Below, one piece after another: positions 1 to 27,132 of a stretch of 40,025 nucleotides of DNA. Location: positions 1-40,025 of the forward strand of contig CAMEJG010000017.1 in the NCBI GenBank assembly GCA_945919465.1. The letters are read 5' to 3'. This stretch comes from an uncultured Anaeroplasma sp. (lineage in GTDB: Bacteria; Bacillota_I; Bacilli_A; Acholeplasmatales; Anaeroplasmataceae). How positions within the stretch are numbered: position 1 is the stretch's first letter; the number at the start of each line of letters is the position of its first letter. The position numbers and the translations under genes were made by a program. Under the pieces are notes generated by a model. The model worked only from the letters and a program-made list of their open reading frames with translations. It searched no databases and was not told where the DNA came from.

Positions 1-1
1 T

Positions 2-3000
2 ACAGTAGTAGAAATTGGTACTCAAGCCTTCTATTATTCAGATATCACATCAGTAACATTTGAAGAAACACCAGAGGGTGTAGATGAGGTAGCATTAACA
101 TTAGGAGAAAGATGTTTTGCAAGCTGTTATGATTTAACAACAATAACACTACCAAAGAGACTTCAAAGCTTATCTACTGGTTACGATCCTAGCACATATA
201 GTCCAAAAAATTCATTTGCATATTGTAGCTATCTTGAAGAAATTAATATTGAGGATGGTTGTGAAGCATATAAGAGTGTTGAGGGTGTTGTATATGATAA
301 ATTAGGAACTGAACTTATTACTTGCCCTGCTGGTAGAAGTGGTGAATTCGTAATTCCTGCTGCAGTAACAACAGTTAAGGAATTTGCATTTAGAAGCTGT
401 TCAAAGATTACAAAGGTTGTTGTACCTGCATCAGTGACTTTAATAGAAAATAATGCCTTTGAATATTGTTATGATTTAGAAGAAGTAGTATTTGAAGAGG
501 CTGATAATCCAGAAATTGCTGATTTAACAATTAAAACTAAAGCATTCTATTCTGATGATTTATTAGAATTAACATTCCCTAAGCATTTACGTACAATTGA
601 ATCATATGCATTTGGTGGAAATTCAAGATTAAAGACTGTTACAGTTAATAGTGAAGGTAAATTAAGTTTTGGAACTGGTGTAACATCTGATGAATCATCA
701 TATGGCTATAGCTATAGCTATGTAACAACAGTAAATCTTTCAGATACTGCATCATTGTTTGACGTTGCAGGTGTATTCAATGGTTCAAATAATAAACTAG
801 CAACAATTAATGTATCAGCTAATAATCAATATTACTATATGAATCAAGATGATGGAGTATTATACAATAAGGAAGTAACAAAGATTTTATATTATCCATT
901 AAATAAGAAGGGTAACTTTACATTACCAGAAACTGTTACTGAAATTTCCGCTAACGTATTTACTGGTAGAGATTTTGTTACATTTACAGTAGGAAAGAAT
1001 GTAGAATTTATTGGTGAAAATGCCTTTGGAAAATGTTTATCATTAAAAGAAGTAGTATTTGAAGAGGGTAGAGAAAAGGATTTAGTAATTGATAAATTAG
1101 CATTTAATAATTGTTCAGCATTAGAAAAAGTACACTTACCTGAAAAAACAGTATCAGTTGGTGATAAGGCATTCTATTATTGTTCAGTATTAAATGACGT
1201 TGTATTACCTTCTACATTAGCTACAATGGGTAGTCAAGTATTCTATTATTGTAATGATCTAAAGTCTATTACACTACCTGCAGGATTAACTCAGGCTGGT
1301 TCTTATGTAGGAGCCGGTAGTCAATTTGATATTTTCTATTATTGTTATAATCTAGAGGAAGTTAATGTAGCTTCTGAAAATACTGCTTTTGCATCAGTTG
1401 ATGGAATCGTTTATGAAAAAGATGAAAATGGTGTTATGAAGACATTATGTTTTTCTCCATTCGGAAAAGCTGGTGAGGTTGTAATACCTAATACAGTTAA
1501 TTATATAGCTACAGAAGCCTTCTATTATAACCAAAATGTTACAAAGATTAGCTTTGAAGATGGCAAATCAGCTGTAAATGCTGAAGGCGTTGAAGGCACA
1601 TTAGAATTAGGAGATAACATTTTCTATTTATGTAATTCACTAGAAGAAATTAGTTTACCTAATATTACAACTGTTCCATCTTCAATCTTCCAAAATTGCT
1701 ATTCATTAAAAACATTTGAGGTTCCATATACAGTTACATCAATTGGAAATGAAGCATTCTATGGTTGTAAAGGATTACAAACTGTAACCTTTGAGGCAAC
1801 TCCTGAAGGTGTTGAAGAAGTTCCACTTACTATTGATTCTGCATCTGGTTCATGGTATTCACCATTTGCATATTCTGGAATTGAATCTATTATATTACCA
1901 GAAAGAACAGTAGAAATTGGTAATTATGCATTTGCTTATTGTGAAAATCTAAAAACAACAAATATTCCTTCAAAGATTACAACAATTAGCAAATATTTAT
2001 ATTATTATTGTTCATCTTTAGCAACTGTAGATATTAGTGAAAATGCAAAAATTACAGAAATTGGAATGTATGCTTTTGCATATTCAGGAATTACTTCATT
2101 AGCTGTTACTGATGATTTAACAACAATGGGAACTTATGTTTTCTATAGATCTAAGCTTCAATCATTTACATGGCCAAAGACTATTACAACAATTCCTAAT
2201 TATACATTTGCAGAGTGTGCAGAATTAACTTCATTTAATTTTGGAGAGTCTACTGTTGTTGCAATCGCTGATCATGCATTCCATGGTTGTACAGCATTAA
2301 CAAGCTTTACATTCCCTGAAACTTTAAAATCTTTAGGAAGTTTTGCTTTTGCATATTGTGAGAAAATCTCAAGCTTTGATTTTGATTCAAACTCTAAGGT
2401 TGCTACAATCGGTGATTCTTGCTTTAGCTCAACTGGTATTACTGAATTTGCATTCCCAGTTGTTCATGATGATGAAGGAAAGATTATTCCATTTGCTACT
2501 TTAGGCTCTAGTTTACTATCAGGTTGTGATAAGCTTGAAACAGTAACAATTTCTGAAAGTGTTGAATCAGTATCAGGAGTATTTACTGGTGCTTTATTCA
2601 AAAATTTAATAATTTCAGAAAATAATCATGAATTCTCTGTAGAAGAAGGAAAACCTGTTCTATATAATAGTGATAAAACAGCTTTAAGATATGTATATGG
2701 TAATACATTATCAGGCGAATATACTGTTCCTAGTACAGTATTATCAATTTCTGATTATGCATTTGAGGGACAAACAAATGTTACTAAGGTAAATATCCCA
2801 TCAAGTGTAGTAGATTTTGGTGAGGGAGTATTTGCACATTGTACTGCATTAACATCAGTTGTATTTGCAAATGATTCTAATTTAACAACAATGGGTAAAT
2901 ATGCATTCCAAGGATGTACATCTTTAACATCTGTTACTTTACCACAAGATCTTGATGCGTTTACTTCCTATATGTTTGAAGGATGTTCTTCATTAGCATC

Positions 3001-5572
3001 TGTTAGTGCACCAAAAGCTAAAGAGGTTGGTGATTATGCGTTCCAAGGCTGCACAAGCTTAAAGAAGGTTGAGTATTCTAAGCAAGTTACTTATCTTGGT
3101 AGTTATGCATTTAATAATTGTAAGTCATTAGAAAGTGCAGTAATTCCTAAGTCAGCAGAGTTAGATTATTCAGTATTTGCAAATTGTACAAAGCTATCTA
3201 ATGTAACAATTGAAGAGGGTGTTGAATTATTACCTTCTAATACATTCTATAATTGTACTAGTCTTGAGTATATTACTCTTCCTGAATCATTATTAACTAT
3301 TGATTACAATTGTTTCTATGGTTCTGGATTAGTTTCTATTGAATTACCTGAAAATGTCACTACAATTGGTAGTTATGCATTTGAAAATTGTGAAAAATTA
3401 GAATCAATTAAGATGGATTGTGCCGTTAATAACATTAACTATTATACATTTGCATATTGTCATAATTTGAAATCTGTTCAATTACCTTCTGATCTTGAAT
3501 TCTTAGGTGTTGGTGCCTTTAGAGAGTGTACATCATTAACATCAATTGAATTACCTGAATCATTAAAGGGCATAGGTTATAATACATTCCAAAATACTGG
3601 ATTAAAATCATTAACAATTCCTGTAAATGTTGAAAAGATTGGTGTTTATTCATTAACAAGTACAATTTCAGATTATACTACTTCTTATTTGGTAGATAGT
3701 TGTCCTGATCTAGAAGAAGTTAAGATTGAAAGTAGTAAGCTTGAGGTTATTACTGCATACTCATTCTCTAATTGTCCTAAGTTAAAGTCAATTGAAATTC
3801 CAAGTTCTGTAAAGACAATAGCTCAATACTCATTCTATAATTCAGGATTAGAGTCTATTGTTATTCCGGCATCAGTAACAACAATTGGTCAATCAACATT
3901 TGCAAATTGTACTAACTTAGCATCAGTCACTATTGATTCTATGCTTGAAACAATAGCTCCAAAAGCTTTTGCAGGCTGTACTTCATTAACAACAATTGAA
4001 TTGCCAGATACAGTTAAAACAATTGAAGTTAGTGCATTTGAAGGTTCTGGTTTAGAATATTTCGAATCATCTAGTGTCTCTTCATTTGGAAATAATGCAT
4101 TTAAGGATTGCGCTCTATTAGAGACAGTTTCAGTAACATCAAGTGAATTATCTGAATTATCATCTAATATGTTTGAGGGTTGTTCTTTATTAAGTACTGT
4201 AACATTATCAGAAAGCCTAACTAAGATTGGTTCAGAAGCATTTAAAGGCTGTAGTGCATTAGAATCTATTACAATTCCTTCATCAGTAAGTACAATTAGT
4301 GATTTAGCATTTGCAAATTCCGGATTAACTGGTGAATTTGAAATTGGAGAAAATGTTACATCATTAGGCTATAATCCATTTGTGGGTTGTGCTAGTCTTA
4401 ATTTGAAACTAAATAGTAATAATAAGGAATTCAAATTTAATGATGGTTCATTATTCTCTTCTGATAATACATTAATAATCTTTAATCCAACATATGTTGG
4501 TGAATTTACAGTCACAACAGATATGTCAGTTAATGGATATGCATTTGCAGGAGTTGAAGGATTAACAAAGATTATCTTAGCTGAAGGTGTTTCTTCAATT
4601 ACTCCATATCAATTTGGAGGTACAACAAATGTAGAAGAAATAGTATTACCATCTACAATTACTAAGATTCCTTCATATGCATTCTCAGGTGCATCAGTAC
4701 CTTCATTTGCAATACCATCAACTGTAACATCAATTGATCAATATTCATTCGCATATTGTAATATTAAGAGTGTTACTATTCCTACAACATTAACTGAAAT
4801 ACCTAATTATGCATTTATGGGTAGTTTAGGATTAGAAGAGGTTAAGTTTGTTGGTGAAGATACAAAATTAGAAAAAATTGGTTCAAGTGCTTTTGAAGAT
4901 TGTGAATCACTAGCTAAAATTAATTTACCATCATGTTTAAAAGTAATAGATGACAATGCATTTGGAAATACAGGATTTGTTAATTTTACATTCCCAGCAA
5001 ATGTTGAATTAGGATATTCAGTACTTTCAGCTTGTGAAAAATTAGAATATGCTGAATTTGAAGAAGGCTGTAAAACAACTGGTAGCTCTACATTCTATAA
5101 TTGTACTAACCTAAAAACAGTTAAATTTGCTGATTCAATTACAGAAGTAGGCTATGGAATTTTCTCTGGATGTACAGGAATTGAAACTTTAAGATATCCT
5201 GCTGGTGTTGATATAGTTGAGGAAATATTTGATAATGCAGTAATTCAAACATTAATTATTCCTGCATCAGTAAAAACAGTTGGAGGATTTGCATTCTATT
5301 ATGCAAATATCGGTAATATTGTATTTGAGGGTGAACCTGAAACTATTGAGTATTATGCATTCTATAATACGAAAACTGATAAGCTTGTTATTCCTTCAGG
5401 AAGCTTAAAGTCAATTGGATATTATGCATTCTATGGTTGGACATCAGAACAAACAATTTGCTTTACAACTAGTCAAACATCTGTGTATAAGGTTTCTGAT
5501 ATGGGATCATATGGAACATTCTATGGTTGTGATGCAAATATTGTATTTGATTACGTACCTGAAGCTGAATAA
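2..5572 (+). CDS. Giant BspA-type leucine-rich-repeat surface protein, 5'-partial
   Basis: The reading frame is open from the left edge (codons from base 2) to TAA at 5572, giving 1856 visible residues. The GTG at 434 is an internal codon, so the true start lies upstream of the window. The protein is almost entirely LRR_5 (BspA/TpLRR) repeats of about 22-25 residues with the pattern I-G-x-x-A-F-x-x-C-x-x-L-x-x-I-x-L-P; roughly 75-80 fit the length. Most repeats have one Cys. The C-terminus carries a non-LRR cap (GWTSEQTI, then F-Y-G-C-D-A-N-I-V). It aligns in register with residues 974-2903 of the next gene, so the missing N-terminus probably holds a lipoprotein signal and InlB/FN3-like modules. 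BspA-LRR proteins are typically surface adhesins; the ligand here is unknown. There is no LPXTG motif. A double hairpin follows. Confidence 0.93.
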   Translation, partial: TVVEIGTQAFYYSDITSVTFEETPEGVDEVALTLGERCFASCYDLTTITLPKRLQSLSTGYDPSTYSPKNSFAYCSYLEEINIEDGCEAYKSVEGVVYDKLGTELITCPAGRSGEFVIPAAVTTVKEFAFRSCSKITKVVVPASVTLIENNAFEYCYDLEEVVFEEADNPEIADLTIKTKAFYSDDLLELTFPKHLRTIESYAFGGNSRLKTVTVNSEGKLSFGTGVTSDESSYGYSYSYVTTVNLSDTASLFDVAGVFNGSNNKLATINVSANNQYYYMNQDDGVLYNKEVTKILYYPLNKKGNFTLPETVTEISANVFTGRDFVTFTVGKNVEFIGENAFGKCLSLKEVVFEEGREKDLVIDKLAFNNCSALEKVHLPEKTVSVGDKAFYYCSVLNDVVLPSTLATMGSQVFYYCNDLKSITLPAGLTQAGSYVGAGSQFDIFYYCYNLEEVNVASENTAFASVDGIVYEKDENGVMKTLCFSPFGKAGEVVIPNTVNYIATEAFYYNQNVTKISFEDGKSAVNAEGVEGTLELGDNIFYLCNSLEEISLPNITTVPSSIFQNCYSLKTFEVPYTVTSIGNEAFYGCKGLQTVTFEATPEGVEEVPLTIDSASGSWYSPFAYSGIESIILPERTVEIGNYAFAYCENLKTTNIPSKITTISKYLYYYCSSLATVDISENAKITEIGMYAFAYSGITSLAVTDDLTTMGTYVFYRSKLQSFTWPKTITTIPNYTFAECAELTSFNFGESTVVAIADHAFHGCTALTSFTFPETLKSLGSFAFAYCEKISSFDFDSNSKVATIGDSCFSSTGITEFAFPVVHDDEGKIIPFATLGSSLLSGCDKLETVTISESVESVSGVFTGALFKNLIISENNHEFSVEEGKPVLYNSDKTALRYVYGNTLSGEYTVPSTVLSISDYAFEGQTNVTKVNIPSSVVDFGEGVFAHCTALTSVVFANDSNLTTMGKYAFQGCTSLTSVTLPQDLDAFTSYMFEGCSSLASVSAPKAKEVGDYAFQGCTSLKKVEYSKQVTYLGSYAFNNCKSLESAVIPKSAELDYSVFANCTKLSNVTIEEGVELLPSNTFYNCTSLEYITLPESLLTIDYNCFYGSGLVSIELPENVTTIGSYAFENCEKLESIKMDCAVNNINYYTFAYCHNLKSVQLPSDLEFLGVGAFRECTSLTSIELPESLKGIGYNTFQNTGLKSLTIPVNVEKIGVYSLTSTISDYTTSYLVDSCPDLEEVKIESSKLEVITAYSFSNCPKLKSIEIPSSVKTIAQYSFYNSGLESIVIPASVTTIGQSTFANCTNLASVTIDSMLETIAPKAFAGCTSLTTIELPDTVKTIEVSAFEGSGLEYFESSSVSSFGNNAFKDCALLETVSVTSSELSELSSNMFEGCSLLSTVTLSESLTKIGSEAFKGCSALESITIPSSVSTISDLAFANSGLTGEFEIGENVTSLGYNPFVGCASLNLKLNSNNKEFKFNDGSLFSSDNTLIIFNPTYVGEFTVTTDMSVNGYAFAGVEGLTKIILAEGVSSITPYQFGGTTNVEEIVLPSTITKIPSYAFSGASVPSFAIPSTVTSIDQYSFAYCNIKSVTIPTTLTEIPNYAFMGSLGLEEVKFVGEDTKLEKIGSSAFEDCESLAKINLPSCLKVIDDNAFGNTGFVNFTFPANVELGYSVLSACEKLEYAEFEEGCKTTGSSTFYNCTNLKTVKFADSITEVGYGIFSGCTGIETLRYPAGVDIVEEIFDNAVIQTLIIPASVKTVGGFAFYYANIGNIVFEGEPETIEYYAFYNTKTDKLVIPSGSLKSIGYYAFYGWTSEQTICFTTSQTSVYKVSDMGSYGTFYGCDANIVFDYVPEAE

Positions 5573-5581
5573 TATTTTATT

Positions 5582-5635
5582 AAGGATAAGACTAAAGTTC
5601 TTATCCTTTCTTTCTTTATTAAGAAAGATTAATTT
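5582..5635 (+). terminator. Tandem hairpin terminator after first LRR gene
   Basis: A 9-bp perfect stem, AAGGATAAG (5582-5590) with CTTATCCTT (5600-5608), is followed by a T-rich run. A second stem, TCTTTCTT (5609-5616) with AAGAAAGA (5621-5628) and a TATT loop, abuts it and is followed by TTAATTTTT. Either could terminate transcription before the next promoter. Confidence 0.75.
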
Positions 5636-5668
5636 TTGATTAATTTTTATGAGATAACAAAAAATTTG

Positions 5669-5697
5669 TTGAATTGAAAAAAAATATGGAATATAAT
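5669..5697 (+). promoter_or_regulatory. Sigma-A-type promoter of the 2903-aa LRR lipoprotein gene
   Basis: TTGAAT (5669-5674), a 17-bp spacer and TATAAT (5692-5697). Transcription would begin near 5704, giving a leader of about 50 nt. The leader contains an 8-bp hairpin, ACATTTTT (5708-5715) with AAAAATGT (5728-5735), then the ribosome binding site AGGAGGG at 5742-5748. The start of the message is therefore structured but the binding site is left free. Confidence 0.8.
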
Positions 5698-5753
5698 TTT
5701 CCTATAAACATTTTTTTGATTTTACATAAAAATGTATTTACAGGAGGGGCAAT

Positions 5754-8700
5754 ATGAAGAAAAAATTATTTACATTCTTTGCTGGAATTTCTGTATTAGG
5801 AGCAATTACTTTAGCTAGCTGTGGGGGTCAAGAAGCAACTTCCACTACAAAGCCATCTACAGGTTCTTCGACTTCTGCTACGTCAAAACCAACAGAGGAT
5901 CAAACATCAGAACTATTCTATAGTAATATAGATAGTAGCTATATCTTTTCAAGATTTGGTTCTAGCTTTACTATGTCTATTAATGGTACTACTTATTCTG
6001 GAAAGTGTAGTGTAGCAAATGGAGTATATACACTTACAGCTTCAGGATTAGAAAATTGTACTGCACAATTGGTTGGAAATGTATTAGTAGTAACATTAAA
6101 TGGTACTTCTTATAATTTCTATAAGAATGTTCAATATTCAGTTACTTTACATATTAATGATGAAACAGAATTAGTTTCTGTTACAAATGGTCATCAATTA
6201 TCTAAACCTGAGGATCCAAAATTAAATGGATATGTATTTGTGGGTTGGTATAAAGATAGTTTGTATACTGAGATATTTGATTTTGATAATGAAATCGTAA
6301 CAGAAAATTTAGATTTATATGCAAGATTTGTTGAATCTGATGGTGATACAGTAGAATATACAGTAACATTCGCTGGCTGTGATTTATCACCAGTATCAAC
6401 ATTAGGCGGAGTAGTATATGATTTGCCAACTCTTGTTGATAAGGATGGAAAAAAATTTGTAGGCTGGTGGATTTCAGATACAAATAAAGCTGATATGTTA
6501 TCACGTCAATATGATGAAGATAAGCTTACAGCTGATACAACTTTATTCCCTGTTTATGATGATGGAGAGATTCATATATCAGTGAATGAGGGAAAAATTA
6601 GCTGGAATAGTATGGGTACAGCTAAACAATATGATGTTATAGTTAAAAATCCAAAGGGTGAAGAAATTTCAACAAAAGTAAATGTTACTTCATATGTCTA
6701 TAATTTTTCTAAGCTTGAAGCGGGACTATATGAAGTTACTGTTAAATGTGGAGATAAGAGCACAACTGCTTATTATGCTCATAATACCCTTTCAAGAGTA
6801 TCAAAATATGAGATTAAGGATTCAAGTATCTTAATGTTTGCTGAAGTTGAAAATGCAGAAGGATATAAGATTACAGTTGAATGTGGCAATGAAAATCATA
6901 ATCATACTGAATATGATTTAGGTAATAGCACATTCTTTGATTTCTCAAATTGTCCTATGAAAGAAGGAGGAATCAAATTTACTGTAACTGCATATGCTGA
7001 TGGTTTTGCATCTTCATATCCTACTACATATGTATTTGATAGAACCCTAGATAAGGTTACTAATGTTTTAGAAAAAGATGGATTTGTTACTTGGACTAAG
7101 GTTCCAGGTGCAACTTCATACATAGTTGTTGTTACAACAGGTGATGTTTCAAATACATATAAGCTTGGAGACGTTAATAGCTTAAGTGTAAAAGAATATA
7201 CTGGTGAAATTACTGTATCAGTAACTCCAGTATCAAATGGATATAATTCTCCAGAGGCTACTTTATATACATTTACAAAGACTGCTTTAGCAGCCCCTAC
7301 TAATGTTCAAATTAATAATACTACTGTAACATGGGATGAGGTAGCTAATGCTACAGGTTATGTTGTAAAGATTAATGATCAAGAATATACAACTACTACA
7401 AATTCATATACAATTGATATTTCATCATTAAGCTCTACTGAAAGCTATAAGGTTAGCGTAAAAGCAGTAGCTAGTGATGCAGCAAACAATTCATATTTTA
7501 GCGAAGAAATTCCATTTAATTATCTTCAATTATCTTCACTTGCATATTCAAATGGCTTATTCAGCTGGAATTCAGTTGTCGGAGCTTCTAAATATGGAGT
7601 AGTAGTTAATGATCAAGAAGAAGTATTTGTAACTACTTCTGAAGCTGAAGTTCTATTTACTAAAGCAGGTGTTAACACATTAACTGTTAAGCTATATGAT
7701 GCAAATGGTGAATATGTTTCAGAAAAGTCACTTGAAGTTACGGCATATGAATTAGCATTTAATACATGCACAGGTGATTCTTCTGATGTTATAGAGTCTT
7801 TATATTTAGCTAAGGGTGATGAATTAGTATTACCTACTCATTCATACTTAGGTTATGTATTTGCTGGTTGGTATAATTTACCTAACGGACCAGAATATAA
7901 TGGAAAATTATATGTTGATGGCGATAGTATGCCAGAATCTAATCTTACATTATATGCATATTGGACATCAGTAAAATATACAGTAACCTTAAATTGTGGT
8001 GATGGAGCTGAGATTGATGAAAATGAAGCACATTTAAGCTTAAATTCTTATTTCGTATTACCAGTACCAACTAGAACAGCTAATGATGCATTAACATTTG
8101 ATGGATGGTATACAGATGTAAATGGTAAGGGTGTAAAGATTACTTCTGCATCTGGTGTTTCATTAAATGCATGGGCTTACAAGAGTAATATAACTTTATA
8201 TGCATCATGGGTAAGATCTATTGCATATGAAGAAATATTAAATAATAATGACGAGGTTGTTGCTTATAGAGCTGTTAAGGGTAGTGATCTTGTTAATTGT
8301 ACAGAGGTTACTGTACCTGCATACTACAATGGACTTCCTGTAACAGAGTTAGGAAGCTTTAGTGGTTGCATGAATCTTGTTAAATTAAATATTCCTGATA
8401 CACTTACATTTATTGATACAATAACAAGCTTTGCAGGATGTTCAAGTCTAGAAGCTATTAATGTGTATGAGGTTGAAGAAAGACATGAAATATTCTACAC
8501 ATCATATGATGGTGTATTATATTATAATAATAGTGTTAGTGAAACTGCAGGCTGGGAGGTTAAATTTGTACCATCTAATAAATCTGGAAGATGTGAATTA
8601 ATGCCTGGCACAGTAAATATTCCTCAAAAGGTATTTGCTGATACAAAGGTTTCTAGTGTATTTATTCCAAAATCTGTTTCTACTATTGGTACTGAGGCAT

Positions 8701-11700
8701 TCTTCTATAGTAAAACATTAAAGGAAGTTAATTTTGAAAATACTCCTGAAAATGAAGAAGCAGTTGAATTATCTATTAATTCACGTGCATTTATCGGTTG
8801 TTATGGCCTTGAAACTATTACATTGCCTGCAAGAACAGTATATATTGCAGCAGGTGTTGATGAGTCTGGTGATGTCATTACTGCATTTACAAGATGTTAT
8901 GCTTTAGATGAAATTCTTGTTGAAGAGGGTAATGAAAATTATGCAAGCATCAATGGTATGCTATATGATGCTTCTAAGACTACTTTATTATTAGTAGGTG
9001 CTGGTACTGCAGGAGAATTAAATATTAAGCTTGGTGCTTCAGAAATTGCACCATATGCTGCAATGGAATGTAAATATATTACAAGTGTATTAATTCCAGG
9101 TTCAATAACTAAAATTGGTGAAAATGCATTTGCTAGTTGTACAAATTTAGCTACAGTTGAATTTGAAGATGAAGAAACCACATTATCCTTAACTATTTGT
9201 GAAAAAGCATTCTATCAATGTGATATTACTGAGCTTACCTTACCAGGATATGCTCGTGAAATAGAAGCACAAGCATTTGGTGGAAATAAGCGTTTAACCC
9301 AAGTAACAGTTAATGCTAATGGTACATTAAATTATGCAGATGGTATTACTGCTGATTCTAACAATAATAGTTTTGTAGAAAAAGTAATTATTGGAGATAA
9401 AGCATCTGAATTTAATGTTGCTGGTGCCTTTGGTGGATCTAATAATCTTTTAAGTAGTGTTGTTGCTACAAACAATCAATATTATTCTACAATTAATGGT
9501 GTTTTATATAATAAAGATGCCACAAAGATTTTATTCTATCCAGCATTAGCAAATACATCATTTACAGTTCCAGAAACTGTTGTTGAAATAACATCAGGAA
9601 CATTTAGAAATAGAGCTGATTTAGTGAGTATTGAAATTCCAGCTAGTGTTGAAGTAATTGGCGATGAAGCATTTGCTGGTTGTACAAAACTTAATACTAT
9701 AACATTTACAGGTGAAAGAACAAATTCTGAATTGACTGTAGGTAATTCAGCATTTAAGGGATGTTCATCATTAACTGAATTAGTGTTACCTAATGGTACT
9801 ACATCTATTGGAGATAATGCTTTTGAAGCAACTGGTATTAAAGATTTTACTGTACCAGAAGGTGTAGTATATTTAGGAGATTATGCATTTAAGAGTTCAA
9901 AACTTACTAAAATATCACTACCTGAATCATTAACTAATTTAGGTTCATTTGATGGAAGTGGAAAGCTAACTGTATTTGATTCTTGTACAACTTTAGATTC
10001 TATTACTGTAGCAGAAAACAATAGCGCTTTAGCCGCAATTGATAGCATATTATATCTAAAAGAAGATGGAATAGTAAGAACATTATGCTATTATCCACAA
10101 AATAAATCTGCTGAAGTTACAATTCCAAGTACTGTAAATAATATAGCTGAGGGTGTATTCTCTAAATCAAAAGTAAAAAAGGTTTCATTTGAAAATAACA
10201 AATCTGCATTAAATACAGATGGTACAGAAGGAGATTTAACTGTTGGTAAGAGTGCATTTGAAGGCTGTACTTCTTTAACTACTGTTAGTTTACCTAATTT
10301 AGTAATAGTTCCTAGCCGTTTATTCTATGGTTGTAAGGCATTAACTTCATTTGAGGTTGATAATAAAGTTACTACTATTGAAGGTGCTGCATTCTATCAA
10401 GCAGGTCAAACTAAGGGTACCTTAGCATTGACATTTGAAGAAGGAAATGATTCAAATCCATTAACAATTGTTGATTCTTCAGCTTATTCAAATCAATTCT
10501 TCTATGCTGGTATTACTTCGCTTGTATTACCAAAGAGATTAGAATATATTGGTAAGTCAGCATTCTATTATTGTACTAAATTAACATCTATTACAATTTC
10601 TGAGGGCTGTAAGACAATAGCTAATGATGCATTTAATTATTGTTCTAGTTTAGCTACTGTAACATTTGCTGAAAACTCAAAACTTGAAACAGTTGGTAGT
10701 GGCGCATTTACTAGAACAAAGATTAAAGCAATTAGCTTACCTGATAGTGTAATTTCATTAGGTGATTCAGCATTTGCATATTGTACTCAATTGACTTCAT
10801 TCACATTACCAAAACAAGTTACTTATGTTCCAAAATCATTATTGAATGGTTGTTCAAAGCTTGAAACATTTAGTTTTGGTGAAGCAGTTGTTACTGAAAT
10901 AAAAGATACAGCATTCTCTGGATGCACTAAATTAACATCATTTGAACTTCCATCATCTGTTACTGCAATTGGTAAAGAGGCATTTAAAAATGCAGGTATT
11001 ACTACATTTACATTTGCTGAAAAATCTCATTTATCGTCAATTGCTGAGGGCGCATTTACTGGAGCTAAATTTACAGAATTTGCATTCCCAACTGTATATG
11101 ATGCAGATGATAAGGTTACTACATTTGCTTCATTAGGTTCTAAATTATTTAATAATAGTAGTTCATTAACTAAGATTACTTTATCACAAAGTGTTAATTC
11201 GATTGTTGATGTATTTACAGGATGTACAAAATTATCTGAGGTTGTTATTGCAGAAGATAATAAATATTTTGCAATTGATGATGCTGCTCCAGTAATTTAT
11301 AGTGCAGATTATAAGACATTATATGCTGTATATGGTAATGCCTTAAGTGGTGAATATACAGTAAATTCTAATACAGTTACAATAAGTGATGGTGCATTTA
11401 GTAAGCAAAGTGGATTAACAGCAATTACAATTCCTGCATCAGTAACTACAATTGGTAATAGAGCATTTGATTCTTGTGAACTTTTAGAAGAAGTTAATTT
11501 TGCTGAAGGCTCAACATTATCTACATTTGGAGAATATGTATTTAATGCCTGTGAATCATTATTATCAATTAAATTACCTTCATCTGTAACTACTTTAGGA
11601 GAAAATATGTTCTCTGAATGTTATGGATTAGCTTCATTTGAAGGAACTGGTGTTACTTATGTTGCAGATGGTGCCTTTGCATATTGTATGGCACTAGAAA

Positions 11701-14465
11701 GTGTTAAATTTAATACAGGATTAGAATATATTGGTAGTAATGCATTTAATTATTGTAAAGCATTAACAAGTATTGATATTTATGCTAATACTGTTGTTGG
11801 TATGGCAGCATTTATGGACTGTAGTTCTCTTGAAACTGTTAATATTGCTGAGGGTGTTGAAGCATTTGAAATGTATACATTCTCTGGTTGCACAAGCTTA
11901 ACTAGTGTTACATTACCTTCTTCATTAACATATATTGGTGATATGTGCTTCTCAGGAACAGGACTAACATCAATTGTTATTCCTAATAAGGTTGCAACTA
12001 TTGGTGGTCAAGCATTCTCTGGTGACTATTCATTAAAAGAAGTAACAATTAAGGGAACAAATTATATTGATATGTCTGCATTTGAAGGATGTTCAGGTCT
12101 TGAGACATTAAATCTTGAAAATGTTAATGAAATTAGTGATCGTGCATTCTATGGTTGTTCAAAGCTTTCTGAGGTAACATTCCCTGATTCATTAACTGCT
12201 ATAGGAGCATGTGCATTTGCATCTACTGGTTTAACTAAGGTTACATTACCTAAAAATTTAGCTGTATTAGGTACTGAAGCTTCTGAATCAGCAGGTGGAT
12301 ATTGGTCTGTATCAGTTGGTGTATTCATGAACTGTACTGAATTAACTGAAGTTGTAATTGAAAGTAATGTTTTAGATACAATTGAAGGCGAAACATTCCA
12401 AGGCTGTACTTCATTAACTTCTATTGAACTTCCAGGAAATATTAAGAAGCTTGGTCATAGAGCATTTAAGAATTCTGGTTTAGTAGAAGCAAATATTTCT
12501 GGTATTACAGAGCTTGGTGTTGATGTATTTGCAGGTAATACAAAATTAACTACTGTTTATTTGAATTCTACATTGACTGAATTACCAAAGAATATGTTTA
12601 ATGGATGTTCAAGCTTAGCTTCTATTGATTTACCAGTCGCAGTAGTAAAGCTTGGTGATTATTCATTAGCTGGTACTGCAATTGAATCAGTTTCATTAGA
12701 TAATATTGAAACATTTGGCACTAATGTATTTGACAGCTGTACTAATTTATCAACATTTGTTGTTAATTCACCTAATTTAACAGCAATTCCTGCTGGAATG
12801 TTTAATGGATGTTCAAATTTAACAACAGTTGAATTATCTGATGCTCTAATTTCAATTGGAGAAAATGCATTTTCTGGTACTGCAATTTCATCATTTAAGA
12901 TTCCAGCTTCTCTTGAAGGTTTATCTGATGGAGTATTCAAGGGCTGTACAAGCTTAACAACAGTTGATTTTAGTGCATGTAATTCATTTAAGAAGTTAGG
13001 TTCTAGTGTATTTGAAGATTGTTCTAAATTAACTGCAGTATCATTACCTGATACATTACAAAGTATTGGAAACTTCGCATTTAAGAATAGTGGACTTTCT
13101 GGTGATTTTGTAATAGGTAAGAATGTAGCTAGTCTTGGATATAATCCATTTATAGGCTGTAAGGGTATTATATTATCTGTAGCAGATGGAAATGAGAATA
13201 TTAAGGCTGATGAAACAAATTCATTATTTGATTCACAAGGCTTATTATTAGTAGCTAGTCCAAGTCTATCTGGTACATTAACTATTCAATCTAGTGCAGC
13301 TCCTTATGCATTTGAGGGTTGTGATGGTATTACTAAGCTAGTATTTGTAGAAGGAATAGAAGAAATTGGTTCTAATATATTCTGTGGATTACCTAATCTT
13401 GAAGAAGTAGTACTTCCTTCAACATTAACTACTATTGCTGATAATGCATTTAATGATAATACTAAGCTTTCAACAATAAATATTCCACTTTCTGTAACTT
13501 CAATTGGAAATAATGCATTTAAGAATTGTGCATTAACTAGTGTTTCTGTATCATCATTAGCTAATATTGGTAAGTATGCATTTGCCGGTAATACTGCTTT
13601 AACATCATTGACATTTGTTGACCCAGAGGAAGAAGCTGAGGGCTCTCAAGTTGTAATTGGTGATTATGCATTTAATGGATGTAGTAGTTTATCAAGTGTA
13701 ACACTTTCTAAATATTTATATGAATTGGGTGCTTATGCATTCACTAATTGTGGATTAACTTCTGTAACAATTCCATCAACAATATCAAGATTCGGTTATG
13801 ATGGTAATCAATTTGCAAATAATACTTCATTATCTACAGTTACTGTTGAATCAGGTATTAGACTTGCTCAAAAAATGTTTGCAAATTGTTCTTCATTAAC
13901 AACATTGAATCTTCCTGAGACTATTGGATTAGATGATAGTTCTGAGTGGAACAGCTTCTTAGGCATTCGTACATTCTCTGGTTGTACAAGCTTAACTAAT
14001 GTAACACTTCCAACAGATCTTGGTGTATTTACTGATGCATTTACTGGAACAGGTATTATTTCTTTAGTACTTCCTGAATCTGTTACTATTATAGGTTCTA
14101 ATGCATTCTCTGGACTTAACAATTTAACTAGTCTAGAAATTAAGGGTGAATTAGATTCAATTGGTGATGAGGCCTTTGTAGGTTTAACTATTGAATCAAT
14201 ATTTATTAAGCTTAGTGGTAATTTTACTTCATGGAGTTATGGATGGCAAATGTTTAGTGGATGGACCTCATCTCAAACAATCTATTTGAATTTAACAGAA
14301 GAAGAGTTTGGCTTAATCGATGAATATGGTGAATTCTTCTCTGGCTGTAAAGCAAATATTGTATACGGCTATTCAGGAGAAACTGGTACTGGTGATAGTT
14401 CAACTGAAGATAATGGTTCTGGTGAAGAAAATCCAGATGCTGGAATCTCTCCATTTGCTTTATAA
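5754..14465 (+). CDS. Giant modular lipoprotein: InlB repeats, FN3-like modules, about 85 BspA LRRs
   Basis: A complete 2903-aa protein starting at ATG 5754 after AGGAGGG. Residues 1-23 are a lipoprotein signal ending in the lipobox L-A-S-C23, followed by a Ser/Thr-rich linker. Two InlB/Listeria-Bacteroides repeats (about 125-192 and 200-269) carry the GW(Y/W) and L-Y-A-R-F hallmarks. About five FN3-like modules (about 272-664) share the pattern W-x-x-V-x-x-A-x-x-Y. Two more InlB repeats follow (about 665-820), then BspA LRRs from about 822 to 2850, a cap (GWTSSQTI, then F-S-G-C-K-A-N-I-V) and a 30-residue Gly/Ser/Glu tail. Most LRRs have one Cys, so the mature protein has dozens. It is predicted to be lipid-anchored on the outer membrane face, with the LRR rod projecting outward. 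It is paralogous to the gene on its left. Function is inferred as adhesion or glycan/protein binding. Confidence 0.95.
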   Translation: MKKKLFTFFAGISVLGAITLASCGGQEATSTTKPSTGSSTSATSKPTEDQTSELFYSNIDSSYIFSRFGSSFTMSINGTTYSGKCSVANGVYTLTASGLENCTAQLVGNVLVVTLNGTSYNFYKNVQYSVTLHINDETELVSVTNGHQLSKPEDPKLNGYVFVGWYKDSLYTEIFDFDNEIVTENLDLYARFVESDGDTVEYTVTFAGCDLSPVSTLGGVVYDLPTLVDKDGKKFVGWWISDTNKADMLSRQYDEDKLTADTTLFPVYDDGEIHISVNEGKISWNSMGTAKQYDVIVKNPKGEEISTKVNVTSYVYNFSKLEAGLYEVTVKCGDKSTTAYYAHNTLSRVSKYEIKDSSILMFAEVENAEGYKITVECGNENHNHTEYDLGNSTFFDFSNCPMKEGGIKFTVTAYADGFASSYPTTYVFDRTLDKVTNVLEKDGFVTWTKVPGATSYIVVVTTGDVSNTYKLGDVNSLSVKEYTGEITVSVTPVSNGYNSPEATLYTFTKTALAAPTNVQINNTTVTWDEVANATGYVVKINDQEYTTTTNSYTIDISSLSSTESYKVSVKAVASDAANNSYFSEEIPFNYLQLSSLAYSNGLFSWNSVVGASKYGVVVNDQEEVFVTTSEAEVLFTKAGVNTLTVKLYDANGEYVSEKSLEVTAYELAFNTCTGDSSDVIESLYLAKGDELVLPTHSYLGYVFAGWYNLPNGPEYNGKLYVDGDSMPESNLTLYAYWTSVKYTVTLNCGDGAEIDENEAHLSLNSYFVLPVPTRTANDALTFDGWYTDVNGKGVKITSASGVSLNAWAYKSNITLYASWVRSIAYEEILNNNDEVVAYRAVKGSDLVNCTEVTVPAYYNGLPVTELGSFSGCMNLVKLNIPDTLTFIDTITSFAGCSSLEAINVYEVEERHEIFYTSYDGVLYYNNSVSETAGWEVKFVPSNKSGRCELMPGTVNIPQKVFADTKVSSVFIPKSVSTIGTEAFFYSKTLKEVNFENTPENEEAVELSINSRAFIGCYGLETITLPARTVYIAAGVDESGDVITAFTRCYALDEILVEEGNENYASINGMLYDASKTTLLLVGAGTAGELNIKLGASEIAPYAAMECKYITSVLIPGSITKIGENAFASCTNLATVEFEDEETTLSLTICEKAFYQCDITELTLPGYAREIEAQAFGGNKRLTQVTVNANGTLNYADGITADSNNNSFVEKVIIGDKASEFNVAGAFGGSNNLLSSVVATNNQYYSTINGVLYNKDATKILFYPALANTSFTVPETVVEITSGTFRNRADLVSIEIPASVEVIGDEAFAGCTKLNTITFTGERTNSELTVGNSAFKGCSSLTELVLPNGTTSIGDNAFEATGIKDFTVPEGVVYLGDYAFKSSKLTKISLPESLTNLGSFDGSGKLTVFDSCTTLDSITVAENNSALAAIDSILYLKEDGIVRTLCYYPQNKSAEVTIPSTVNNIAEGVFSKSKVKKVSFENNKSALNTDGTEGDLTVGKSAFEGCTSLTTVSLPNLVIVPSRLFYGCKALTSFEVDNKVTTIEGAAFYQAGQTKGTLALTFEEGNDSNPLTIVDSSAYSNQFFYAGITSLVLPKRLEYIGKSAFYYCTKLTSITISEGCKTIANDAFNYCSSLATVTFAENSKLETVGSGAFTRTKIKAISLPDSVISLGDSAFAYCTQLTSFTLPKQVTYVPKSLLNGCSKLETFSFGEAVVTEIKDTAFSGCTKLTSFELPSSVTAIGKEAFKNAGITTFTFAEKSHLSSIAEGAFTGAKFTEFAFPTVYDADDKVTTFASLGSKLFNNSSSLTKITLSQSVNSIVDVFTGCTKLSEVVIAEDNKYFAIDDAAPVIYSADYKTLYAVYGNALSGEYTVNSNTVTISDGAFSKQSGLTAITIPASVTTIGNRAFDSCELLEEVNFAEGSTLSTFGEYVFNACESLLSIKLPSSVTTLGENMFSECYGLASFEGTGVTYVADGAFAYCMALESVKFNTGLEYIGSNAFNYCKALTSIDIYANTVVGMAAFMDCSSLETVNIAEGVEAFEMYTFSGCTSLTSVTLPSSLTYIGDMCFSGTGLTSIVIPNKVATIGGQAFSGDYSLKEVTIKGTNYIDMSAFEGCSGLETLNLENVNEISDRAFYGCSKLSEVTFPDSLTAIGACAFASTGLTKVTLPKNLAVLGTEASESAGGYWSVSVGVFMNCTELTEVVIESNVLDTIEGETFQGCTSLTSIELPGNIKKLGHRAFKNSGLVEANISGITELGVDVFAGNTKLTTVYLNSTLTELPKNMFNGCSSLASIDLPVAVVKLGDYSLAGTAIESVSLDNIETFGTNVFDSCTNLSTFVVNSPNLTAIPAGMFNGCSNLTTVELSDALISIGENAFSGTAISSFKIPASLEGLSDGVFKGCTSLTTVDFSACNSFKKLGSSVFEDCSKLTAVSLPDTLQSIGNFAFKNSGLSGDFVIGKNVASLGYNPFIGCKGIILSVADGNENIKADETNSLFDSQGLLLVASPSLSGTLTIQSSAAPYAFEGCDGITKLVFVEGIEEIGSNIFCGLPNLEEVVLPSTLTTIADNAFNDNTKLSTINIPLSVTSIGNNAFKNCALTSVSVSSLANIGKYAFAGNTALTSLTFVDPEEEAEGSQVVIGDYAFNGCSSLSSVTLSKYLYELGAYAFTNCGLTSVTIPSTISRFGYDGNQFANNTSLSTVTVESGIRLAQKMFANCSSLTTLNLPETIGLDDSSEWNSFLGIRTFSGCTSLTNVTLPTDLGVFTDAFTGTGIISLVLPESVTIIGSNAFSGLNNLTSLEIKGELDSIGDEAFVGLTIESIFIKLSGNFTSWSYGWQMFSGWTSSQTIYLNLTEEEFGLIDEYGEFFSGCKANIVYGYSGETGTGDSSTEDNGSGEENPDAGISPFAL

Positions 14466-14502
14466 TTTTATAATAATAATTGCTTAAATAATTATTTTAT
14501 TT

Positions 14503-14550
14503 AAAAGGATATGTTATATATTTAAATTTAATGCAACATATCCTTTTTGT
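14503..14550 (+). terminator. Rho-independent terminator after the 2903-aa gene
   Basis: A perfect 13-bp stem, AAAAGGATATGTT (14503-14515) with AACATATCCTTTT (14535-14547). The loop is AT-rich and the 3' arm runs into a T-tract. Confidence 0.85.
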
Positions 14551-14588
14551 TATATATTCGTAAAACGCTATTTTTTTCAAAATAATAA

Positions 14589-14617
14589 TTGAATAAATAC
14601 TTTATTTGATGTATAAT
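14589..14617 (+). promoter_or_regulatory. Sigma-A-type promoter of the thioredoxin-like lipoprotein gene
   Basis: TTGAAT (14589-14594), a 17-bp spacer and TATAAT (14612-14617): the same hexamers and spacing as the promoter of the preceding giant gene. Expected transcription start is near 14624. An upstream in-frame ATG at 14606 overlaps this -10 region and cannot be the start. Confidence 0.8.
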
Positions 14618-14650
14618 AATCGTATATATTTATATTTGGGAGGATTAAAT

Positions 14651-15910
14651 ATGAAAAACAAAAAAATAATATATACATCTTTATTATTATGTAGTGCATT
14701 TGCACTAGCATCTTGTGGAAGTACAAATCCAAGTGATACTTCAACATCACAAAATTCTACTTCTCATACTACATCTACTCCAACTTCTACTGTAACTTCT
14801 ACTTCAACTCCAACAACTGCTACATCATATGTAAAAGAAATGAGCGTTGAAATGAAGGTATTATATCCAGAAGGAGACCCAGTGCCTAATCTTGAATTAC
14901 AACTTGTAGATACCGAAGGTAAATCAGTTGGTGAAGTAGTAAAGACAAATTCAAAAGGAATTGCTAAGGTTATTGTTCCTAGAGCAGAATATTATGTTAG
15001 TATTTTAAATTTATCTAGCGATTGTGCATTTAATCCATATGGGGTACAAATTAATGAGGACAATAAAAATGTGACATTAAATTTAGTTTACCTAAATTCA
15101 TTTAATGCAGTTGAAGCAACTAAAGATGCTCCATTTGATATCACTGAAGGCTTCTATTTATCAAAAAATAGCCAAGAAGTATTTTTCAAATCAACATTTA
15201 CTGAATCAGGTACACATATTTTAGGTTCTTATGATGATTCTGGAAAATCAACTCTTAAATTTTATGGCACAAGCTTATCTAATACACCAGAAGAAGTTAC
15301 ATTCGGTGGTGAAATGGCTACATCTAAATATGAATTCCAAGTTGCACCAAGCGATGTTGCTGCAGGAAATTCATATTATTTCTCAATCGATAGCAAAACA
15401 TCAAGCGATTTATTATTCTCTTTAAGTAGTCTTCATGATGGTAAAAAAATAGGAAAAAATATTGGTGATATTTGTCCAACAAGAACCTTCACTACTTTTA
15501 AAAAGAGTGGAACAAAAGGTAAATTTAATGTAAGCGATAATGCTGGTAAGAAAATTACTATCGTAAATTTCTGGGCTACATGGTGTACATATTGTATTCA
15601 AGAAATGCCAGATTTTGCTGATATTCAAGATGAATATTCAGATGATTTAGATGTTTTGGCAATTCACTTAAAATCTTCTTATAAGGAAGCTGAGGCATTA
15701 TCATTCATTAGCGAAAGTTCAAGAGCAAACTATAACTTTATTTGGGCTATTGGAGATAATGACGATCAATATTATAAGGACTTAGGTGGTGGAGATGGTA
15801 TTCCATATTCTGTTGTAGTTGATAAGGATGGAACTATTTTAGCTATATTCGCTGGGGCAACTAAATATGATGCATTAAAGACAGTTATTGATAATGCATT
15901 GACTAAATAA
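14651..15910 (+). CDS. Thioredoxin-fold (TlpA/ResA-like) lipoprotein
   Basis: A 419-aa protein from ATG 14651, preceded by GGGAGGA at 14638-14644. It has a lipoprotein signal with lipobox L-A-S-C, then a Ser/Thr-rich linker. A beta-sandwich-like region follows that resembles a carboxypeptidase regulatory (CarboxypepD_reg) domain (V-P-N-L-E-L-Q-L-V-D). The C-terminal third is a thioredoxin fold with the redox motif W311-C-T-Y-C315 and the cis-proline G-I-P385-Y. This is the TlpA/ResA/DsbE architecture of extracytoplasmic thiol reductases tethered by lipid. Own promoter and terminator. Its neighbours are giant LRR lipoproteins with about one Cys per repeat, so a role in keeping or setting their thiol state is plausible but inferred. 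The substrate and the electron donor are not visible; no CcdA/DsbD-type partner is nearby. Confidence 0.9.
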   Translation: MKNKKIIYTSLLLCSAFALASCGSTNPSDTSTSQNSTSHTTSTPTSTVTSTSTPTTATSYVKEMSVEMKVLYPEGDPVPNLELQLVDTEGKSVGEVVKTNSKGIAKVIVPRAEYYVSILNLSSDCAFNPYGVQINEDNKNVTLNLVYLNSFNAVEATKDAPFDITEGFYLSKNSQEVFFKSTFTESGTHILGSYDDSGKSTLKFYGTSLSNTPEEVTFGGEMATSKYEFQVAPSDVAAGNSYYFSIDSKTSSDLLFSLSSLHDGKKIGKNIGDICPTRTFTTFKKSGTKGKFNVSDNAGKKITIVNFWATWCTYCIQEMPDFADIQDEYSDDLDVLAIHLKSSYKEAEALSFISESSRANYNFIWAIGDNDDQYYKDLGGGDGIPYSVVVDKDGTILAIFAGATKYDALKTVIDNALTK

Positions 15911-16136: not shown

Positions 16137-16247
16137 ATTAAAAACAAATATAAGGGTATTTAGATGAATTTTGTTCGAAAATCTTCATCAAAATTTAATT
16201 TATAATTCACGTTATTTGTTTTGAAATATTTTAGGGAGGATATACAT
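16137..16247 (+). promoter_or_regulatory. Candidate structured 5' leader of the MoxR operon
   Basis: The predicted leader of about 110 nt can close with a perfect 10-bp helix, AAAACAAATA (16141-16150) with TATTTGTTTT (16213-16222). This encloses a bulged hairpin, GATGA (16163-16167) with TCATC (16185-16189) plus ATTTT/AAAAT around a GTTCG loop. The ribosome binding site GGGAGGA (16234-16240) lies just outside the closing helix. This resembles a cis-regulatory leader, but it matches no riboswitch class I know and the helices are AT-rich. Confidence 0.35.
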
Positions 16248-17327
16248 ATGGGTAAAAAGTTGTTTAGAAGATATTATATTAGATTAGCTTTTCATGGTTT
16301 ACTTAATGCATTATTCTTAGGATTAGTTACTGGCTTTTCAGGATTAATGATTTCCTCAATTGTATGTTGGATTTGTAGCTATAAAGCTTTATGGTTATGC
16401 TTTACAATTTTTGGTGCATTAATTTTAGTTTCCACTCCAATTTATTATTTTGTATTTTATAAACCAAATACAAAAGAAATTGCAAAGAGAATTGATGAAA
16501 CTGGTTTAGAAGAACGTATGATTACAATGAATGAATTACAAAATGATGATTCATTTATTGCTAGAAAACAAAGAGAAGATGCATTAAAATGTTTAAGTAT
16601 AGTTGATGCTAAGCTTTTAAAGTTCGTATTTTCTGTTCCTGTGTTGATTGCATTAGGATGTACATGTGTATTAGGTTCTGCTGCAGCAGTAACTGAAGGA
16701 TTATATCAAGCAGATGTAATTAAATCTGGTAAGGATTTTTTTGATGATGCAACTGGAGAAAATAAAGTAGTATTCTATACTATTGAATATGATGTTAATG
16801 GCGATGGTATGATTGATGGTGAAGTCGTTCAAATAGTTGAAGAGGGTAAAAGTACTACTTTAGTAGAAGCTATTGCTGATGACGGTTTTGTATTTGTTAA
16901 TTGGGTTGATAAGGATGGAACAGTTTATGGTGAAGAGCCTGCTAGACTTGAAACTCAAGTTAAAGATGATTTAAAGCTTTACGCTCAATTCCAAGAAGCT
17001 CAATCACAAGATGGTGATGGTGAAGGCGAAGGTGAAGGCGAAGGCGAAGGCGAAGGTGAAGGTGAAGGTGAAGGCGAAGGCCAACCAAATGATGGTGAAG
17101 GTGATGGAAAAGGTCAAGGAAAACCAAATCCTAATCCACAACCAGGAGGAGGAGCTGGATCTTCATATGAATCAAATAGCCAAGTTATAGATGGTAAGAC
17201 TGATTATAGCGATGTATATGGTGATTCTCGTAATGATGCTATGACTGATATGAGTACTAATGGTGATAATTACTCAGGTGATAATAAAGATATCGCATCA
17301 GATTATTTTGATACTATAAAGAATTAA
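16248..17327 (+). CDS. Three-TM operon membrane protein with InlB-like outer domain and (GE)10 tract
   Basis: A 359-aa protein; the start ATG 16248 is chosen because GGGAGGA lies 7 bases upstream, whereas the longer frame begins at a TTG with no binding site. Hydrophobic segments are at about 14-42, 48-69 and 125-148. The cytosolic loop between TM2 and TM3 holds A-K-R-I-D-E-T-G-L-E-E-R-M, reminiscent of DUF4175-type proteins found in MoxR/vWA operons. After TM3 comes a module ending L-Y-A-Q-F, like the InlB/Flg_new repeats of the surface lipoproteins nearby. It is followed by ten Gly-Glu dipeptides, a Gly/Pro-rich linker and an Asp/Asn/Ser-rich tail. First gene of the operon. Role unknown; a membrane scaffold or a contact point for surface proteins is inferred. 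Confidence 0.8.
   Translation: MGKKLFRRYYIRLAFHGLLNALFLGLVTGFSGLMISSIVCWICSYKALWLCFTIFGALILVSTPIYYFVFYKPNTKEIAKRIDETGLEERMITMNELQNDDSFIARKQREDALKCLSIVDAKLLKFVFSVPVLIALGCTCVLGSAAAVTEGLYQADVIKSGKDFFDDATGENKVVFYTIEYDVNGDGMIDGEVVQIVEEGKSTTLVEAIADDGFVFVNWVDKDGTVYGEEPARLETQVKDDLKLYAQFQEAQSQDGDGEGEGEGEGEGEGEGEGEGEGQPNDGEGDGKGQGKPNPNPQPGGGAGSSYESNSQVIDGKTDYSDVYGDSRNDAMTDMSTNGDNYSGDNKDIASDYFDTIKN
17019..17081 (+). repeat. Hexanucleotide tandem repeat encoding (Gly-Glu)10
   Basis: Ten consecutive GGYGAA hexamers (GGT or GGC then GAA), ending with an extra GGC. Copy-number change would keep the frame and only alter linker length. A second short Gly/Asp/Glu stretch follows at about 17091-17115. Confidence 0.9.
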
Positions 17328-17376
17328 TTTTTTACAATATATAGAATTAAACAATTGGGAAAGAGGTTATTTAAAA

Positions 17377-18384
17377 ATGTTAGAAGAAAAGATTGTAGAA
17401 AAAGATGTTGAACAATTCAGTACACAATGTGAGAATATTTTCAAGCAAATCTCACGTGACGTTATCGGACAAAAGGAAGTTGTAGAGCATACAATTATTG
17501 CTATGATTTCTGGTGGTAACGTATTACTAGAAGGTGTTCCAGGAGTTGGTAAAACTCGTTTAGTACGTACTTTAGGTAGAGTATTTGATCTACCATTCTC
17601 TCGTATTCAGTTTACACCAGACTTAATGCCTGCCGATGTTACTGGTACAAACATTATTGTTAAAGATGAAAATGGAAATTCAACTTTCCAATTCCAACCA
17701 GGTCCAGTATTTAGTAATATCATCCTTGCCGATGAAATTAACCGTGCTACTCCAAAGACACAATCAGCATTACTTGAGGCCATGCAAGAGCATACAGTTA
17801 CTGTAATGGGTGTTTCTAGAAAGTTAAGCGAGCCATTCTTCGTATTAGCTACTCAAAACCCAATTGAACAAGATGGTACTTATCCATTACCAGAAGCTCA
17901 AATGGACCGTTTCATGTTTAAGCTTTTAGTACCAGATCCAAGTCTTGATGAATTAATGCAAATTGTTGATATGACTCAAAAAACAATGGCTGAAGTATCA
18001 GAAGCAGCATGTACAGGTGAACAATTACTTCAAATGAGAAAAACTGCTAATGCAATTCCATGTGCACAAGATGTATTAAAGTATGCAATGGTTCTTACTG
18101 CAGCAACTAGACCTACTGGTGAATATGCTAGTGAGGCTGCAAAGAAGTATGTACGTGTAGGTGCTTCTCCACGTGCTGGTCAAGCAATGATTTCAGCTGC
18201 TAAGGTTAAAGCTTTAATTTATGGTAGATACAATGTTGCTTATTCTGATGTAGAAGAATTAGCATGTCCAGTATTAAGACATCGTTTAAAACTTAACTTC
18301 GAAGCAGTTGCTGAAGGTGTTTCAGCAGATGAAGTTATTAAAATGATTGTTGATGAGGTTAGTAAGAAATATAAAGGAAAATAG
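17377..18384 (+). CDS. MoxR-family AAA+ ATPase
   Basis: A 335-aa protein starting at ATG 17377 behind AAGAGGT. Walker A is G53-V-P-G-V-G-K59-T; Walker B is L-A-D119-E120-I-N-R; sensor 1 lies in A-T-Q-N-P-I-E-Q; and the sensor 2 region has G-A-S-P-R-A-G-Q. Length and motif order are typical of MoxR proteins. These are cytosolic hexameric ATPases that pair with vWA-domain proteins, analogous to Mg-chelatase I/D, and act as chaperones for protein maturation or metal insertion. The next three genes encode DUF58 and vWA proteins, the classic partners. It sits 49 bp after the upstream membrane gene, consistent with one transcript. Confidence 0.96.
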   Translation: MLEEKIVEKDVEQFSTQCENIFKQISRDVIGQKEVVEHTIIAMISGGNVLLEGVPGVGKTRLVRTLGRVFDLPFSRIQFTPDLMPADVTGTNIIVKDENGNSTFQFQPGPVFSNIILADEINRATPKTQSALLEAMQEHTVTVMGVSRKLSEPFFVLATQNPIEQDGTYPLPEAQMDRFMFKLLVPDPSLDELMQIVDMTQKTMAEVSEAACTGEQLLQMRKTANAIPCAQDVLKYAMVLTAATRPTGEYASEAAKKYVRVGASPRAGQAMISAAKVKALIYGRYNVAYSDVEELACPVLRHRLKLNFEAVAEGVSADEVIKMIVDEVSKKYKGK

Positions 18385-18392
18385 TCTTATAG

Positions 18393-18413
18393 ATGCCCAT
18401 TAAATGTGGGCAT
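18393..18413 (+). other. Intergenic hairpin between moxR and DUF58 genes
   Basis: ATGCCCA (18393-18399) pairs with TGGGCAT (18407-18413) around a 7-nt loop, unusually GC-rich for this window. The sequence after it (TTATAATTAAAAAA) is a poor U-tract, so it looks more like a processing, stability or partial-termination element than a full terminator. Confidence 0.5.
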
Positions 18414-18450
18414 TTATAATTAAAAAAATATTTAGTATTGGAGAGAGCTT

Positions 18451-21329: not shown

Positions 21330-21346
21330 TTTGGGGGGATGAGATT

Positions 21347-27089: not shown

Positions 27090-27132
27090 AAAAATCGATA
27101 TAGATTTTTGTAATAAAAAGGAAGGTATTTTT

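Follow-up and report, generated by a model that had tools for sequence, protein, structure and literature searches.

Full-register duplication and apparent sequence exchange in a family of giant BspA-type leucine-rich repeat genes of an uncultured Anaeroplasma

Background

Two giant genes rich in leucine-rich repeats (LRRs) stand one behind the other at the start of the DNA stretch analysed here (the window), which is the complete 40,025-bp contig C17, one of the 89 contigs that make up a 2.1-Mb genome. The bacterium is low in GC, and its gene content, with the order of recA, rny, ymdB and miaB, points to the Bacilli. They raise the question of whether a whole gene was duplicated or two repeat arrays grew independently and came to look alike, and whether their divergence reflects different ligands or antigenic variation, as a preliminary description of the locus had suggested. 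We refer to the two genes as A and B, and to a third copy, found on contig C69 (5.7 kb) of the same genome, as copy C.

Results and discussion

Organization of A and B

The features of the two genes are collected in Table 1. The LRR_5 profile (PF13306, cut-off 27.7 bits) covers all of A and copy C and most of B, scoring 1023, 986 and 1027 bits for A, B and copy C, respectively, with 16-17 stretches in each. The repeat units are spaced mostly by 22-24 residues, as estimated with a rough pattern. We modelled residues 1-550 of A and obtained an LRR solenoid with a pLDDT of 89. Its best matches in the PDB are PcpA, 4gt6, 4h09, 4fs7 and the TpLRR protein of T. pallidum, with 6mlx also found, and each of the 13 top-ranking PDB rows is a BspA-type LRR protein of bacteria. 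The TpLRR fold of A is thus shown at the level of the predicted structure.

Table 1. Features of the A-B locus; positions are those of the window
Feature	Coordinates	Strand	Remarks
ORF A	2..5572	+	1856 aa, open at the 5' end (the contig start cuts the gene)
Repeats of ORF A			~60-80 BspA/TpLRR (LRR_5) repeats, colinear with B 974-2876
ORF B	5754..14465	+	2903 aa, same strand as A, downstream of A
Layout of ORF B			lipoprotein signal (lipobox LASC), InlB-type repeats, FN3/Ig-like stretch, LRR_5 solenoid, C-terminal tail
LRR_5 solenoid and tail of B			solenoid starts at ~residue 845; C-terminal tail short and acidic
Best InlB B-repeat (Flg_new/List_Bact_rpt) of B	6135..6323	+	residues 128-190; two more stretches in B
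Segment of B colinear with A and with copy C	8673..14381	+	residues 974-2876
Contig edge identical to the start of C69	1..55	.	first mismatch at base 56
Gene-conversion tract	500..1068	+	569 bp, 100% identical to copy C (C69:494-1062)
Intrinsic-terminator-like hairpin downstream of A	5582..5608	+	1 found, 0.1 expected in shuffles
Promoter-like TTGAAT-17-TATAAT upstream of B	5669..5697	+	consensus match only; equally frequent in shuffles

The N-terminal part of B is of a different composition. It opens with a lipoprotein signal (MKKKLFTFFAGISVLGAITLASCGG), whose lipobox was read from the sequence, followed by three InlB-type repeats with a weak match to internalin B (2y5p) and by an FN3/Ig-like stretch with weak Pfam matches only; a single-sequence model of this N-terminus reached a pLDDT of 34 and was unusable. 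Lipid anchoring is predicted from the signal in B, and A and copy C may be anchored to the surface likewise.

Further genes are encoded downstream. Directly 3' of B lies a lipoprotein gene with a C-terminal thioredoxin/redoxin (TlpA-like) domain (window 14606-15910). A Bat-like operon follows (window 16221-24253), in which the genes for a MoxR ATPase, a DUF58 protein, a BatA-type VWA protein and a double-VWA protein are consecutive. Ahead of them is the gene for a membrane protein that carries an InlB repeat and a GEGEGE run, and all of these genes sit inside a block of surface lipoprotein genes. Two more lipoproteins are encoded at window 24291-32181, one of 1682 aa in which an InlB repeat is followed by an unassigned region, the other of 932 aa with LRR_5 repeats but outside the family of A, B and copy C.

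A and B are duplicates in full register

BLASTP aligns A and B in a single colinear alignment (A 1-1854 on B 974-2876, 37% identity, 1174 bits), while the best off-register match reaches 379 bits. The offset along this alignment stays between -14 and +51 residues, which agrees with the earlier claim that the two genes keep one register and the same order of landmarks with a drift of tens of residues. Five segments interrupting the LRRs correspond one to one between A and B (GVVYDK, GVLYNK, GIVYEK, PVLYNS...YGNTLSGEYTV and GSLFSS), and GYNPF and the C-terminal QTI motif (QTICF) map likewise. The matching range had been given as B 974-2903; its start holds, but the match stops at B 2876, where B carries an extra tail of 27 residues.

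Since BspA-type proteins all look alike, we ran controls on the register. The global A-B score is 3066. Mid-range circular rotations of B average 1273 and reach 2178 at most, and shuffles of its LRR units score 1273 +/- 142 (maximum 1545). The best unrelated BspA-type protein among those fetched scores at most 357 bits, and another LRR protein in the same window 241 bits. These numbers bear on the alternative that the LRR arrays grew independently from a short common ancestor and resemble each other through the repeat consensus alone. The DNA repeats inside A and B do have a common unit, and BspA-type arrays of other phyla align to long parts of A at 24-29% identity, but no BLAST match off register or to an unrelated protein exceeds a third of the in-register score, and the five interrupting segments correspond one to one. 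Because the in-register score exceeds those of the rotation, shuffle and unrelated-protein controls, the duplication is real; independent growth is refuted, and we give it next to no probability. A and B are true full-register duplicates, confirming a duplication of the whole domain. They are also tandem neighbours as described, with the terminator-like hairpin between them. As an account of the history of the locus, duplication of A and B stands but is incomplete, the closest relative of A being copy C.

A third copy and the age of the split

Copy C encodes 1853 aa and is 67% identical to A over the full length in a single colinear match (2514 bits); it is 35% identical to B in the same register (1056 bits). 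The nucleotide identity between A and copy C is ~74% overall, i.e. 26% divergence over 5.5 kb. Nei-Gojobori counts give pS 0.42 and pN 0.21 for A and copy C, and dS ~0.98 and dN 0.63 for A and B, by which A and copy C are sisters and B is the older branch. Copy C presumably belongs to the tandem as well.

We searched the 26 other genomes of the genus with a profile of A, B and copy C. Each copy scores over 2400 bits in its own genome, while the scores in the 26 congeners are at most 209 bits and no in-register homologue was found among them, most of these genomes being rich in LRR_5 proteins. A search of the genus for orthologues with the N-terminus of B gave only partial matches, in the InlB and FN3 regions. 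Among the contigs of named genomes only distant LRR proteins were found (24-37% identity), most of them from Bacteroidales and Clostridia. Judged by these searches, the family appears restricted to one lineage among the genomes compared.

Sequence exchange between A and copy C

The 569 bp that are identical in A and copy C (Table 1) lie in a sharply bounded, near-identical zone (window ~455-1107) that contains five differences, the flanks of the tract being 86% and 76% identical. Inside the identical tract pS is 0, versus 0.42 overall. Because the synonymous differences vanish there too, the tract reflects a recent exchange of DNA by gene conversion and not selection on the protein, and A and copy C are mosaics. 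The exchange makes the copies more alike, i.e. it homogenises rather than diversifies. No similar tract links A or copy C to B, the longest exact match being 20 bp.

The missing N-termini

The window and contig C69 start at the same base of the same codon and are identical over exactly 55 bases; among the binned contigs, the first 130 bases of the window match C69 only. The shared edge is probably an assembly branch point at k=55, and we infer that A and copy C probably share an identical N-terminal coding region, collapsed into a common upstream node outside the bin. That ~970 residues are missing upstream of A, as predicted from the alignment with B, is plausible.

A putative upstream end is found on a single binned contig, C1. 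This contig holds the first 34 codons of a gene that begins just past recA, and the signal peptide of this gene (MKKKLFKFFTAVSVLGATATLASCGG) is 74% identical to the lipoprotein signal of B. With the shared contig edge, it lends the predicted N-terminus indirect support; A and copy C may have the same kind of lipoprotein head. The ends of C1 and C69 have no match to any other binned contig. In many genomes of the order recA and rny lie close together, and a link between C1 (with recA) and the window (with rny) is plausible. It is only plausible because in the congeners, wherever both genes were found, they are on separate contigs with other neighbours and flank no common interval. Around recA and rny the conserved gene order is broken in the genus, with variable genes on either side (loci L076-L115).

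The main rival to a paralogous copy C is that C69 carries the allele of A from another strain, binned together with it, so that the shared 5' edge and the identical tract would mark allelic identity and the LRR region would be hypervariable. The common first base of the two contigs, the small size of C69, a contamination of the bin of 1.7% and the presence of a single binned contig with a putative upstream end would all suit this reading. However, a divergence of 26% with pS 0.42 over 5.5 kb is far above what is usual between strains, an allele of A ought to run into B, and the 3' flank of copy C, with its own hairpin and T-run, is by eye unlike the A-B spacer. We consider a strain allele unlikely.

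Selection and the case for variation

The overall dN/dS of A and copy C is 0.41, and none of the 60-codon windows reaches 1. In A and B (window 1-14600) we found neither simple-sequence repeats nor inverted repeats of at least 30 bases; short imperfect palindromes would escape the latter search. Neither positive selection nor a switch element, the marks of phase or antigenic variation, was thus seen in this region. The suggestion that the diverged repeats serve antigenic variation or new ligands is not supported, because dN/dS is below 1 in each window; no switch elements were found either, and the lone recent exchange homogenises.

A variable-antigen system would keep a constant, identical N-terminal module and recombine the repeat regions between copies to alter the exposed surface. 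It could draw on the apparently identical 5' region of A and copy C, the sharp-edged internal conversion tract, the strong lineage restriction of the family and the known case of Ca. Mycoplasma girerdii, in which dinucleotide repeats make BspA-like genes phase-variable (PMC5476646). Such a system would be at odds with dN/dS below 1 throughout, with the lack of simple-sequence and long inverted repeats in A and B, and with the one exchange seen, by which the copies became more alike; besides, there are no more silent copies, only A and copy C matching C69 lengthwise. We hold it to be very unlikely. In a related arrangement of constant head and variable shaft, at least three giant LRR lipoproteins would share an N-terminal module homogenised by recombination while their LRR blocks are moved by ectopic conversion. 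If true, this could give the population combinatorial adhesin variants, and we regard it as quite unlikely.

A proposed model for the family

The likely explanation in our judgement is that A, B and copy C are lipid-anchored TpLRR adhesin paralogues, duplicated as whole genes and partly homogenised by gene conversion. Each protein would be held by a lipidated cysteine at its N-terminus, which is seen in B and would extend to A and copy C, and the InlB-type and FN3/Ig-like modules would raise a TpLRR solenoid of ~60-80 repeats off the surface. By analogy the solenoid is most likely an adhesin or ligand-binding fibre. Within this lineage, an older whole-gene duplication would have given B and the ancestor of A and copy C, and a younger one A and copy C themselves. 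Ectopic gene conversion between A and copy C, which would remain recombinogenic, would then have homogenised ~570-650 bp; the N-terminal coding region was probably homogenised as well, while the remaining repeats would drift under purifying or relaxed selection.

The suggested adhesin role is modelled on BspA of Tannerella forsythia and LrrA of Treponema denticola, both surface adhesins, and BspA has been described to bind fibronectin/fibrinogen, other bacteria and TLR2 (PMC2843621). Together with the TpLRR protein of T. pallidum, these proteins are like A, B and copy C in their LRR_5 repeats, fold matches and, as predicted from the signal in B, export, and families of paralogues are usual among them. 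BspA-like proteins of up to 1865 residues (PMC2843621) and 1481 residues (PMC4206474) have been described; B is longer than those of both studies and differs by its N-terminal InlB and FN3-like modules. We see here the ordinary growth of a known type of adhesin family and no new class of system.

Ca. Mycoplasma girerdii encodes 26-28 BspA-like genes (26 in PMC4206474), and gaps in its assembly often fall inside them (PMC4206474). Both cases have many BspA-like paralogues in a small genome. Most of its BspA-like proteins have a C-terminal transmembrane helix (PMC4206474), whereas B has an N-terminal lipoprotein signal, and the phase-variable dinucleotide repeats that some of them carry (PMC5476646) have no counterpart of this type in A and B.

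The PARCEL/DUF285/TIGR02167 lipoproteins of Mollicutes and Listeria also have tandem repeats in surface lipoproteins, as is the case here. PARCEL units comprise 25 residues encoded by palindromic DNA (PMC2996958), whereas the units here are mostly shorter and lack 30-base inverted repeats, LRR_5 being dominant and DUF285 not reported. TIGR02167 (cut-off 30) scores 58.7 bits in B and 27.3 bits in copy C, with no match in A. Membership of the three proteins in PARCEL is unlikely. The LRR part of A, B and copy C also matches the streptococcal HupY/LrrG model (NF047961), in the repeats only; with 288, 298 and 341 bits against a cut-off of 1250, we rejected this equivalog.

The family illustrates how giant BspA-type genes can expand in an uncultured lineage by whole-gene duplication with continuing sequence exchange, and how exchange between copies breaks assemblies and conceals the part that the family has in common. 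It also offers a tidy case for weighing drift plus conversion against selection for variation in LRR lipoprotein arrays.

Other giant surface genes in the genus and the genome

A congeneric genome has a single open frame of 17,173 aa (G011:C1:6876-58394 (+), loci L117-L119), in which slices taken at the start and in the middle contain LRR_5 and the end is formed by a type I dockerin. Another frame of the same genome (G011:C26) encodes 12,865 aa and has LRR-type repeats; its C-terminus is hydrophobic and has a basic tail. These two frames dwarf A and B. In a genome of the same family, four giant frames of 2105, 16,208, 5592 and >1661 aa lie in a run (G047:C8:2705-80000 (+), loci L124-L127), and the frame of 16,208 aa has LRR_5 and, by eye, a dockerin-like end. 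The genome of A and B itself encodes further large lipoproteins at L019 (G000:C1, ~96-104 kb, - strand) and L020:1216-4881, with long PTSAPTST-type linkers after the signal and InlB repeats, one of them having an open frame of 3416 aa.
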